From the NCBI RefSeq assembly GCF_005116675.2, contig NZ_CP050699.1, positions 5,017,001 to 5,081,000 on the forward strand: a DNA stretch of 64,000 nucleotides. Direction: 5' to 3'. Position numbers and translations under genes: made by a program. This document shows positions 21,748-26,145 of the stretch, piece by piece. Below the pieces are notes generated by a model. The model worked only from the letters and a program-made list of their open reading frames with translations, was not told where the DNA came from and did no database searches. The stretch's first letter is position 1. Every line of letters starts with the position of its first letter. Origin of the DNA: Desulfosediminicola ganghwensis (lineage in GTDB: Bacteria > Desulfobacterota > Desulfobulbia > Desulfobulbales > Desulfocapsaceae).

Positions 21748-22197
21748 TTATATTATAATCACGGTTATACCCTGATTCCTGCGGTTAAGGTTCTTGTTCA
21801 ACCTCAGTTGCGGGTAACGGTTGAGCAGGTCTTTTACCACTCCGTTATTTTTATGAAAATCCTCTCCGGAAACATAACTGCTGAGCTGACCGTGGCTACA
21901 CATATAATCGAGAGTTTTGCGACATTCCCGGCGAATGGCCCCGCCCTTGCCGGAAGAGCCGTAACCATGGATGACCGTCAGCGCCTGTATTTCACCATTT
22001 CTCGCCTCTCGTATGGCCACCTGCAACTGACGTAGAGCACTCTCCACGAAGGGCATTCCCTGCTCTAAATTAATTGTACGATGAAGAAATGTTTTGGCTT
22101 TGCTGCGAGGTTCGGAACCTGCCTGCTTTGACCCGCAGAATGGGCAGAAGCTTTTATCATTATCAATCTCGTTTCCGCAAATCAGACAAATATCCAT
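21748..22197 (-). CDS. Zinc-ribbon plus Smr domain protein
   Basis: This is a 149-residue protein. Residues 4-22 form a zinc ribbon (CLICGNEI...CPFCGS). From about residue 40 a stand-alone Smr domain follows, with a HRTINLEQG start, the loop TVIHGYGSSGKGGAIRRECR near 94-113 and LSSYVSGEDFHKNNGVVKD near its end. Smr domains bind branched or structured nucleic acid and some cleave RNA at stalled ribosomes; this loop reads HGYGSSGKG where the classical form is HGxGxGxL. It ends 10 bp after the rel-type gene start region on the same strand and may be its last cotranscribed gene. The substrate is unknown. Confidence 0.75.
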   Translation of the reverse strand: MDICLICGNEIDNDKSFCPFCGSKQAGSEPRSKAKTFLHRTINLEQGMPFVESALRQLQVAIREARNGEIQALTVIHGYGSSGKGGAIRRECRKTLDYMCSHGQLSSYVSGEDFHKNNGVVKDLLNRYPQLRLNKNLNRRNQGITVIII

Positions 22198-22207
22198 ACC
22201 ACCGTTA

Positions 22208-24391
22208 CTATATACGCCTCGCGGATATTACGTGTTCCATCTGCCTGATATGCTGCATAATAGTCTTAAGATGCTCGAGATCTTTTACTTCCAGAGTGAT
22301 GTGCAGATCAGCGGTTTCCTCTACGGTAGTGCGACCTGAAATATCTGCGATATTAGCGTTGTCTGCACTGATAACCGCACTGATCTCAGCAAAAATGCCA
22401 CGGCGGTTCTCCGCCTTGATATGGATGGCGACATTGTAATACTTTTCTTCCATACCGGCCCATGAGACATCAATCCAGCGAAGCGGGTCGGTGGATGTCA
22501 GATTGACGCAATCCTGCTTGTGGATCGAGACACCGCGTCCCTGGGTGATAAAACCGACGATAGGGTCGCCCGGCAAGGGGGAGCAGCAGCGACTGATTTT
22601 GGCCAGCATGCCATCTACACCTTCAATGCTCACGCCAGACTTGTCCCGATTGGCTGATACAGTGCTCTGCGGCACAGCTGCCTCGGTCAGTTCTTCCTGC
22701 GACAATTCTGCGGTTTGAGCCACATGCTCGCCTGCACTCTCGGCAGGCAACAGTGCCCGGATGAGAGACTGCAACGTTATTTGACCATTGCCGACCTTGA
22801 TCAGCATGTCGTCAAGGGAATTGCAACGCAACGCTTTGAGCAGCTGACGTATATGACCGCCCTTGATCATCCTCTTGAGGGTCATATCGTGCTTTTTCAG
22901 CTCACGCTCGCAGATCTCCCGGCCAAGCTTGAGTGCCTTCTCCTTTTCTTCACGACGCAACCATGAACGAATCCTGGCCTTTGCTCTGCTGGTCTTGACC
23001 AGATCAAGCCACCCTCTTCGCGGCGTCTGGGTAGGTGAGGTAATAATCTCGATAATATCGCCGTTCTGCAGCTTGTACTTCAGCTGTACCAACCGCCCGT
23101 TCACCTTGGCACCTACACAGTGATCGCCCACCTCAGAATGAATTGAGTACGCAAAATCAATAGGACAGCTGCCATTGGGGAACTCTTTTACCTGACCGGC
23201 AGGAGTGAGGGCATAAACATCGGGATCATAGAGCTCACCACGTACTGAATCAAGGAATTCCCGTGGATCTTCGACCTCTTGAAGAGACTTGACCAGCTTT
23301 TTCAGGTCACGAAAGAGACGTGCATCCTTATCTGTGGCCTTTTGTCCCTCTTTATACGCCCAATGTGCTGCGACACCTTCCTGGGCCACCCTGTCCATAT
23401 CCTCTGTACGGATCTGGATCTCGATGAAATGGTCTCTTGGGCCAACGACCGTGGTGTGCATGGACTGGTAGTTATTGGACTTGGGGACAGAGATGAAATC
23501 CTTGATTCTGCCTGGCACCGGAGACCACTCTGCGTGAACCACACCGAGGGTTTCGTAACAATCTTTGACCGATTCGACAATAACCCTGAAGGCAACCTTG
23601 TCGTATACCCGCTCCAGTGGAATATTCTGGGCAATAAGCTTCTTGTAGATAGAATAAATATGCTTGGGTCTGCCGATGATACGAGTTGGCTCAATATCAT
23701 TTTCGGCAAGCTTCTGGTGGAGTATGGCTATTACCTCGTCAACATACTCCTGTCTCTCTTCAAGAGAACTCTCCAGCTTTTCCGTCAGGTCTTTATAATC
23801 TTCGGGATAAAGATATTTGAATGAGTAGTCCTCAAGTTCACGCTTCAGCCAGTCAATACCAAGCCTTGAAGCAAGAGGAGCATAGAGATCCATGGTCTCC
23901 CGGGCAATTTCCAACTGGGTTTCCCGGTCAACATGGTCAAGAAGGAACAGGTCCTGCAGGCGGTCGATAAGTTTCAGCAGCAGTACACGAATATCTGCAG
24001 CTATGGCGAGCAGCATCCGGCGCACATTCTCTGCGTGGCTCACCAGCTTGCTGTTATATTGGACCTTGTTGATCTTGGTGGCACCAGCCACAATGGCCGC
24101 AACATCGGGACCGAAATCCTTTTCCAGTTCCTCGATGGTTACCCCCTCGTGCGGGACACCATGAAGCAGGCCGGCCAGAACGGTATCCAGATCCAGATGC
24201 ATTGATGCCAGGGTCGAAGAGACCTCCAGCAAATGGATCAGATAGGGTTCGCCGGAGAGATGGAGTTTCCCGCTGTGAACACGGGTGACGACCTCCCACG
24301 CCTTATCTATGGGTGAGAGGTCGACACCATGCAGGTAATTTGAAGCTAGAATTTTCAACCCTTTCGGGTTTAACATCGATGAGTAGGGCAT
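22208..24391 (-). CDS. RelA/SpoT homologue, synthetase-type with degenerate hydrolase
   Basis: This 727-residue long RSH protein controls the alarmone (p)ppGpp in the stringent response. Domain order is HD hydrolase (about 30-190), synthetase (about 235-350), TGS (about 385-450), helical and zinc/CC region (RCCSPLPGD near 610) and ACT at the end. The synthetase keeps YDKVAFRVIV, the RIKD motif that marks bifunctional enzymes, and NNYQSMHT. The hydrolase has lost key residues: LLHDTVEDT became LLHGVPHEG and KLADRLHN became KLIDRLQD. It probably makes but cannot break (p)ppGpp, so a separate hydrolase should exist. The start is uncertain, with no clear ribosome site before ATG 24391. Confidence 0.9.
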   Translation of the reverse strand: MPYSSMLNPKGLKILASNYLHGVDLSPIDKAWEVVTRVHSGKLHLSGEPYLIHLLEVSSTLASMHLDLDTVLAGLLHGVPHEGVTIEELEKDFGPDVAAIVAGATKINKVQYNSKLVSHAENVRRMLLAIAADIRVLLLKLIDRLQDLFLLDHVDRETQLEIARETMDLYAPLASRLGIDWLKRELEDYSFKYLYPEDYKDLTEKLESSLEERQEYVDEVIAILHQKLAENDIEPTRIIGRPKHIYSIYKKLIAQNIPLERVYDKVAFRVIVESVKDCYETLGVVHAEWSPVPGRIKDFISVPKSNNYQSMHTTVVGPRDHFIEIQIRTEDMDRVAQEGVAAHWAYKEGQKATDKDARLFRDLKKLVKSLQEVEDPREFLDSVRGELYDPDVYALTPAGQVKEFPNGSCPIDFAYSIHSEVGDHCVGAKVNGRLVQLKYKLQNGDIIEIITSPTQTPRRGWLDLVKTSRAKARIRSWLRREEKEKALKLGREICERELKKHDMTLKRMIKGGHIRQLLKALRCNSLDDMLIKVGNGQITLQSLIRALLPAESAGEHVAQTAELSQEELTEAAVPQSTVSANRDKSGVSIEGVDGMLAKISRCCSPLPGDPIVGFITQGRGVSIHKQDCVNLTSTDPLRWIDVSWAGMEEKYYNVAIHIKAENRRGIFAEISAVISADNANIADISGRTTVEETADLHITLEVKDLEHLKTIMQHIRQMEHVISARRI

Positions 24392-24432: not shown

Positions 24433-26145
24433 TCAGTGTTCCATATCTTTTTTGATTCTCTCCAGCAGAGATTCAACTATCTGCTCTGGAGCAATTTCTT
24501 CAGTATATCCATCACTGCGACGGCGCACCTCGAGAACTCCGTTTTTAGTCAGGGACTTGCCAACAGTCACCCGGTACGGAATTCCCAACAGATCAGCATC
24601 TTTAAACTTGGAGCCCGGACGTTCATCGCGGTCATCGAAAAGTACTTCGATACCAGCTTGCTGCAGATCGCTATACAATTTCTCGGCCGCCGCATTAATA
24701 CTCTCATCCTTCAACCCAAGATTCAAGATAATAACTTGATATGGTGCCAGGGGTACCGGAAAAATAATGCCGTTTTCATCATGATTCTGCTCGATAGCAG
24801 CGGCAACGACCCGGCTTACACCGATACCGTAGCACCCCATAACGAAAGGCTTCTCCTGGCCGTCTGCATCCTGGAACATAGCCTCCATCGACTCTGAGTA
24901 GGAGGTCCCAAGCTTGAAGATATGTCCTACCTCGATACCCTCGGTGAGATCGATCTCTCCACCACAGGCAGGACATGGATCTTCGATAGTCACCTGGCGC
25001 AGATCAGCTATGCCGCTCACCTCGAAATCACGACCGAGGTTCACGTTACGCATATGGTAATTCTTCTCGTTGGCTCCAACGACGAAGTTTGCCATAGCGG
25101 CAACCTCCTGATCGGCAACCAGCTTGATTTTGCTGTTGACCGGTCCGAGATAGCCTGTCGGGGCCCCTGTGGCATCAAAAGCAGCTTTGTCGTCAGCAAG
25201 TTCAACGTCAATGGCCCCAAGGAAATTCTTGAGTTTCACCTCTTCAACTTCACGATCGCCGCGTACCAGTACTGCCACCGGGGTACCATCAGCAATATAG
25301 ACCATTGTTTTTACGAGCTGATCGGGGGTAATATCCATGAACTCACAGACCGCGTTCACCTTGCGCTTACCTGGAGTCTCAACTTTTTCAAGATCAAGCA
25401 GCGGCTCATCGTTTTTCGCTTCGGCCGGCTTAACCTCAGCCTTTTCCATATTTGCCGCATACTCGCACGACTTACAGACCACGATGGTATCCTCGCCAGT
25501 ATCGGCCAGTACCATAAATTCATGGGAGAAACTGCCGCCAATGGCACCTGAGTCCGCCTGCACTGCACGGAATTCGAGACCGCAACGGGTAAAAATACGT
25601 TTATACGCCTCGTACATTTTACCGTACGCGACCTCTGCGCCAGCGTCATCGACATCGAAGGAGTACGCGTCCTTCATGATAAACTCACGACCGCGCATCA
25701 GGCCGAAACGGGGACGTATCTCATCGCGGAACTTGGTCTGGATCTGGTAGAGATTAATCGGCAGATCCCGGTAGGAATGAAGGTCCCGGCGAATAATATC
25801 TGTGATAACCTCTTCATGGGTAGGTCCGAGGCAGGACTCACGCTCGTGACGGTCATGAAAACGCAGCAATTCCGGTCCATACTTCTCATATCGTCCGGTT
25901 TCACGCCAAAGATCCGCAGGCTGTACCATCGGCATCATCAGTTCCTGGGCGCCGGCCCGGTTCATCTCTTCCCTCACAATCGCCTCAACCCTGCGAATTG
26001 CCGCCAGACCATAGGGCAGATAGGTATAAACTCCAGAGGTGAGTTTTCGCATAAAACCCGCTCGCAGCATGAGTCTGTGACTAATGACTTCAGCCTCGGC
26101 AGGTGTCTCCTTGAGTGTAGGCAAAAGTGATTGAGAGTAACGCAT
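24433..26145 (-). CDS. proS: Prolyl-tRNA synthetase
   Basis: This 570-residue class II synthetase of the bacterial type charges tRNA-Pro. It has motif 1 near the start (MLRAGFMRKLTSGVYTYLPYG), motif 2 FRDEIRPRFGLMRGREF, the inserted editing domain at about 225-390 that removes mischarged alanine, motif 3 CYGIGVSR and an anticodon-binding domain at the end (VLFDDRDERPGSKFKDADLLGIP). The length is normal for the family. It lies 41 bp upstream of the rel-type gene on the same strand. The ribosome site is weak. Confidence 0.97.
   Translation of the reverse strand: MRYSQSLLPTLKETPAEAEVISHRLMLRAGFMRKLTSGVYTYLPYGLAAIRRVEAIVREEMNRAGAQELMMPMVQPADLWRETGRYEKYGPELLRFHDRHERESCLGPTHEEVITDIIRRDLHSYRDLPINLYQIQTKFRDEIRPRFGLMRGREFIMKDAYSFDVDDAGAEVAYGKMYEAYKRIFTRCGLEFRAVQADSGAIGGSFSHEFMVLADTGEDTIVVCKSCEYAANMEKAEVKPAEAKNDEPLLDLEKVETPGKRKVNAVCEFMDITPDQLVKTMVYIADGTPVAVLVRGDREVEEVKLKNFLGAIDVELADDKAAFDATGAPTGYLGPVNSKIKLVADQEVAAMANFVVGANEKNYHMRNVNLGRDFEVSGIADLRQVTIEDPCPACGGEIDLTEGIEVGHIFKLGTSYSESMEAMFQDADGQEKPFVMGCYGIGVSRVVAAAIEQNHDENGIIFPVPLAPYQVIILNLGLKDESINAAAEKLYSDLQQAGIEVLFDDRDERPGSKFKDADLLGIPYRVTVGKSLTKNGVLEVRRRSDGYTEEIAPEQIVESLLERIKKDMEH

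Follow-up and report, generated by a model that had tools for sequence, protein, structure and literature searches.

A resident Rel of Desulfobulbia predicted to act as a synthetase-only stringent factor beside a dedicated long hydrolase

RelA and SpoT are the textbook example of a division between making and hydrolysing the alarmone. In the excerpted text of Tamman et al. 2022 (PMC9974481), subfunctionalisation of the long RSH proteins is counted 'at least twice', in the Gammaproteobacteria only. Excerpts of Atkinson et al. 2011 (PMC3153485) give the delta-proteobacteria typically as 'Rel[HS] often + SAS and/or SAH'. They also recognise RshD, a second long RSH in four organisms including Desulfotalea psychrophila and Syntrophobacter, which is labelled [HS], that is, bifunctional, and whose carriers are counted as delta-proteobacteria or Magnetococcus. 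The sections on long-RSH evolution in these excerpts make no mention of site loss in RshD or in the partner Rel. Going by its description, RshD probably includes the hydrolase-type copy of Desulfobulbia treated here. A literature search, with subscription journals and preprints outside its scope, found no paper on a split in Desulfobulbia.

The window analysed here is a stretch of 64,000 nucleotides from the genome of Desulfosediminicola ganghwensis (NZ_CP050699.1, positions 5,017,001 to 5,081,000). The open reading frame of its long RSH occupies exactly 22208-24391 on the minus strand, with no internal stops (Table 1). The architecture is complete by Pfam, with HD, synthetase, TGS, RIS and ACT domains, and is that of a long RSH. 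The closest named relatives are those of Desulfosediminicola flagellatus (Desulfobulbia, Desulfobulbales, Desulfocapsaceae) and Desulfopila aestuarii, each 81% identical. A small zinc-ribbon and Smr-like gene lies directly 3' of the RSH gene in 76 of the 76 named loci with enough flank.

Table 1. Coordinates of the RSH gene, its domains, motifs and neighbours in the window, and of the other RSH-domain proteins of the genome.
Feature	Position	Strand	Basis or detail
Long RSH, 727 aa, predicted (p)ppGpp synthetase with inactive hydrolase domain	22208..24391	-	TIGR00691, 710.4 bits against a cut-off of 499.2
HD_4 domain, residues 31-179, predicted to lack catalytic activity	23855..24301	-	PF13328, 153.9 bits
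LLHGVPHEG, residues 75-83, against LLHDxxEDT; H77 kept; D78G, E81H, D82E	24143..24169	-	alignment
KLIDRLQD, residues 140-147, against KLADRLHN; D144 kept, N148D	23951..23974	-	alignment
RelA_SpoT synthetase domain, residues 240-350, all scored residues kept	23342..23674	-	PF04607, 135.4 bits
RIKD (RxKD motif), residues 295-298	23498..23509	-	sequence
TGS domain	23039..23215	-	PF02824
RelA_AH_RIS region including conserved Cys pair	22496..23002	-	PF19296
ACT domain	22214..22444	-	PF13291
proS (prolyl-tRNA synthetase), upstream neighbour of the RSH, 41 nt gap	24433..26145	-	neighbour reading
Zinc-ribbon/Smr-like protein, downstream neighbour of the RSH, 10 nt gap	21748..22197	-	PF01713, 29.3 bits
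Second long RSH, predicted hydrolase-only, outside the window, about 87 kb off	C1:5128752-5130854		HD intact, synthetase broken
206-aa HD_4 protein, possible small alarmone hydrolase	L007 1330-1950 (genome C1, about 899 kb)		H, HD, ED and D/N motifs kept
363-aa protein, RelA_SpoT domain only	L009 6851-7942 (genome C1, about 946-947 kb)		synthetase residues look kept

Residues are numbered as in RelSeq, placed through the motifs of E. coli SpoT; for the synthetase site and part of the HD site we take the numbers to be those of the RelSeq scheme. The hydrolase site of the window protein is changed at five residues (R44H, D78G, E81H, D82E and N148D) and retains H53, H77 and D144, and it thus lacks the full set that marks the intact HD domain of a bifunctional Rel (H53, H77, D78, E81, D82, D144 and N148). 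All of the scored synthetase residues are present (R241, K243, D264, R295, K297, D298, Y308, H312, E323 and Q325). According to excerpts of PMC13299517, Mn2+ in the empty hydrolase site is held by His53, His77 and Asp144, and R44Q and D78A each abolish hydrolysis by RelSeq. The A. baumannii SpoT is reported to be inactivated by alanine at Y51, E82, D83 or N147 (PMC9974481, in excerpt), the last three of which correspond to RelSeq E81, D82 and N148. As H53, H77 and D144 are kept, metal binding by the HD domain of the window protein may survive. The structure model is modest overall (pLDDT 70.5, pTM 0.47); the pseudo-HD domain is folded in it (pLDDT about 85-95 over residues 11-110), and the modelled catalytic half matches Thermus Rel 6s2u with a TM of 0.80 by target length.

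An earlier note on this sequence had quoted the motifs LLHGVPHEG, KLIDRLQD and RxKD, all of which are present, and had concluded that the metal-binding Asp and the catalytic acidic pair are gone. The Asp of KLIDRLQD, however, aligns with the metal ligand D144 and is retained; it is D78 that has been lost. The same note proposed a synthetase-only enzyme, and the residues point that way: substitutions lie at positions whose change is reported to kill the hydrolase, and nothing scored in the synthetase site is missing. It also took RxKD as the mark of bifunctional enzymes. RIKD is there, but as a strict mark RxKD fails in this phylum, as is seen below.

For comparison, 274 sequences were picked, and the merging of 30 duplicates left 244 aligned rows, including two E. 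coli references. The readable synthetase-type copies of the class number 114, with 58 from genomes placed in the same order as the window and 56 from a named collection; the latter are 61-81% identical and are counted as class members by similarity. Left out of the counts are L041 (HD unreadable), L154, L155, L156 and L243 (fragments or short sequences) and L011 (an extra bifunctional copy in genome G034). D78 and N148 are lost in all 114. D78 is replaced by Gly in 111 copies, by Ser in 2 and by Arg in 1, and N148 by Asp in 109, by Leu in 4 and by Phe in 1. E81 is lost in 112 (kept by 2), D82 in 106 (kept by 8) and R44 in 100. Residue 81 is Lys in 106 copies and His only in the window protein. 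H53 is kept in 114/114, H77 in 113/114 and D144 in 112/114. The ten tallied synthetase residues and the RxKD motif are retained throughout (114/114), and the alpha6-alpha7 loop spans 19 in 112 of the copies, as in Rel/SpoT.

Two or more TIGR00691 matches are found in 59 of the 60 genomes sampled from the family and, among the matches listed, in 86 of the 87 sampled from the class, where a few are fragments. Among the matches listed, G083 is the one class genome with a single long RSH. Another genome of Desulfobulbia, G034, has an additional, apparently bifunctional Rel (L011), which groups with actinobacterial Rel in a quick tree (100, starred branch) and would represent transfer or contamination.

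Outside the class, 82 of 94 genomes of the phylum have one TIGR00691 match, 3 have none and 9 have two. Six of these nine have two long RSHs (G152, G185, G210, G172, G200 and G136); the remaining three (G138, G150 and G171) have fragments or a short extra copy. From outside the two-copy lineages 53 Rels were read, 52 of them from one-match genomes and the other from G171, which has a short copy besides; none of the 53 has lost any of the seven scored HD residues. Sequencing or frame error, or chance, can be ruled out for the changes in the window protein, with 114/114 relatives agreeing and 53/53 other phylum Rels intact in HD. The motif in these bifunctional-type Rels is RxKD in 34, KxKD in 12 and something else in 7. 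RxKD is therefore a poor guide to function in the phylum. Shorter extra RSH-like copies in G214 (L243) and G171 (L155) have intact synthetase residues, an unrecognisable HD site and SxDD or TxDD.

The genome to which the window belongs is a single contig of 5.65 Mb. Four of its proteins pass the Pfam cut-offs for RSH domains; besides the window protein these are a second long RSH, a RelA_SpoT protein of 363 aa and an HD_4 protein of 206 aa. A second RSH or a small alarmone hydrolase elsewhere in the genome had been put forward as a check in the earlier note, and the genome has both a second long RSH and, in the HD_4 protein, a possible small alarmone hydrolase. The former has an intact HD site (LLHDTVED, KLADRLHN) and a broken synthetase site (E323L, Q325K and D264T, with the Pfam model unmatched over its first 26 positions); no Pfam match to an ACT domain was found in it. 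The gene beside that of the 363-aa protein presumably encodes an IS110-type transposase. A lone synthetase without any hydrolase was also considered, and is rejected because the genome holds these further RSH and HD_4 proteins.

The intact HD site and broken synthetase site of a hydrolase-only long RSH are seen in P0004 and in 41 of 41 hydrolase-type copies. R44, H53, H77, D78, E81, D82, D144 and N148 are all kept in 41/41, while E323, R295 and Q325 (which becomes Lys) are lost in 41/41 and D264 in 40/41, being kept by L127. Both types of copy were read in 30 of the 30 genomes from which both were fetched.

Judging from the sequences, it is highly probable that in the window gene the Rel resident in Desulfobulbia has become a synthetase-only stringent factor, paired with a dedicated hydrolase long RSH. 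We infer both enzyme activities from residues. At starved ribosomes the window protein would make (p)ppGpp through its intact synthetase site. Its HD domain would be a folded, non-hydrolysing pseudo-domain, probably retained to control the synthetase; control by a dead HD domain has been demonstrated for E. coli RelA (excerpts of PMC8012599). The (p)ppGpp would be removed by the separate second long RSH, in which the HD site is preserved and neither the synthetase site nor a recognisable ACT domain remains. In the excerpts of PMC3153485, ExDD is tied to a preference for GDP and RxKD to a preference for GTP, so that the window protein should favour GTP.

Could the altered site of the HD domain still support hydrolysis, be it weak or of some other substrate? 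Nearly all copies keep the three Mn ligands, and 106 of the 114 have Lys81, which suggests that the pocket is not drifting freely. This reading is nevertheless unlikely: excerpts of PMC13299517 and PMC9974481 report R44, D78, E81/D82 and N148 to be necessary, each in its own right, a dedicated intact hydrolase stands alongside, and across the same 30 genomes the mean identity within the HD domain is lower for the synthetase-type copies than for their partners (0.54 against 0.64). For the synthetase domain the values are 0.69 and 0.55, respectively. It is very unlikely that the 206-aa HD_4 protein, for all that it keeps the catalytic motifs, is the working hydrolase in place of the second long RSH. 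HD-only short matches occur in only a few of the 60 family genomes, where the second long RSH is near-universal, and the long copy retains all of its HD residues in every case read.

With the HD columns left out, both from the tree and from the AU test against RelA, the class synthetase copies form one group (100/100), separated from RelA by a starred branch, and a clade uniting them with RelA fails that test (p 0.00065). By phylogeny the window protein is thus outside RelA, as the claim of a separate evolution had it. A third tree, again without the HD domain, has a starred branch (97/98) that unites the class synthetase copies with the bifunctional Rels of lineages f23, f54 and f61, and the synthetase copies of f43 and f76 fall outside it. 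A RelA acquired from Beta- or Gammaproteobacteria, or a true RelA orthologue, would have the same functional pattern of a lost HD site and an intact synthetase. Such an identity is extremely unlikely given the AU test and the starred branches, which place the window protein with the Rels of its phylum; the protein also has RxKD and not ExDD, lacks the extended loop and has other HD substitutions, several RelA rows being without even H77 or D144. The gene proS lies upstream in every one of the 74 named class loci whose flank is long enough, and also just upstream in 20 of the 53 phylum Rels, for which short flanks were read. Together with the trees, this indicates a resident Rel and not an import. 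On this sequence evidence, the window protein is a resident Rel of its phylum, derived by vertical descent and by prediction turned synthetase-only.

The hydrolase copies of Desulfobulbia group with those of f43 (100/99), on long branches, and E323L/Q325K is common to the hydrolase copies of Desulfobulbia, f43 and f76. A profile of this copy (E 1e-140) finds 15 of 197 phylum genomes, nine of them from the same order as the window, three from f43 and three from f76. A clade of the hydrolase copies with the synthetase copies of their own class (plus f43) is disfavoured (p 0.018), and simple duplication within the class is therefore not shown. A clade of the partner (with the f43 hydrolase copies) and SpoT, the latter represented by four ordinary SpoTs and not by that of Moraxellaceae, is also disfavoured (AU p 0.0166), weakly so because of the long branches.

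In f43 and f76, the same type of hydrolase copy goes with synthetase copies that are differently changed. Those of f43 have HN or HDxxER/EK; those of f76 have HDxxDD or DG with N148D and keep D78, and loss of the hydrolase in these is less sure. In the lineages f51 and f27 the hydrolase copy bears a different signature (E323R or S, Q325Y) and the synthetase copy is changed in other ways again; rpoB places these lineages elsewhere in the phylum. Thus two other lineages of the phylum appear, from their residues, to have versions of a RelA/SpoT-type split. A single origin of all the split systems in the phylum is disfavoured, the p value for the synthetase copies of the four lineage sets as one clade being 0.032. 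With rpoB, under a model without mixture, p is 4.6e-7 for the host lineages as a clade including f51/f27 and 0.0007 for a clade of Desulfobulbia, f43 and f76; the rpoB tree fixes no branching order among Desulfobulbia, f43/f76 and f54/f61. There is no rejection of a clade that joins the synthetase copies of Desulfobulbia to those of f43 (p 0.275), nor of one with f76 added (p 0.0623), and p is 0.209 for grouping the hydrolase copies of f51/f27 with the synthetase copies of the same lineages. The p values for groupings of f43, f51, f27 and f76 are weaker than they look because the groups were named after first results.

At least two, and probably three, separate losses of the hydrolase in the phylum fit best. 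A fuller account can be offered only tentatively, and is rather doubtful as a whole. The hydrolase-only long RSH may have arisen once and come to be present in at least two separate lineages of the phylum, Desulfobulbia and the f43/f76 group, either through transfer or because an old duplicate survived, after which the resident bifunctional Rel of each would have lost its hydrolase by different substitutions. The pseudo-HD domain of Desulfobulbia, with its conserved HGxxK and its metal ligands kept, may then be a non-hydrolysing alarmone-sensing pocket, and the third lineage, f51/f27, would have split likewise with other changes.

An apparently complete split throughout a class, with relatives that still have one bifunctional Rel, is a natural replicate of RelA/SpoT, in which it can be asked why pseudo-domains persist and which half fails first. 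ExDD is not needed for the predicted synthetase-only enzyme here. Caution is due in annotation, as a bifunctional label taken from RxKD or from family models would mislead for these genes.

Among known systems, the window protein resembles the RelA[hS] of Beta- and Gammaproteobacteria in being, by prediction, a synthetase-only long RSH that retains an inactive HD domain and is accompanied by a second, hydrolysing long RSH. It differs in its motif (RIKD, against ExDD in 6 of 7 RelA references and QxDD in 1 of 7), in the span of the alpha6-alpha7 loop (19, against 25-31 in seven RelAs), in its other HD substitutions with H53, H77 and D144 kept, and in its separate position in the tree. The partner resembles the SpoT[Hs] of Moraxellaceae (A. 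baumannii), also a long RSH whose synthetase is broken and whose HD is intact, but different residues have been lost, those of the partner being E323L and Q325K. The bifunctional Rels of the phylum are closest to the window protein in the tree and have the same architecture; unlike it, they keep the whole scored HD site. The split of Desulfobulbia, as read from these residues, is thus apparently of the RelA/SpoT type, separate from that of E. coli and more complete.
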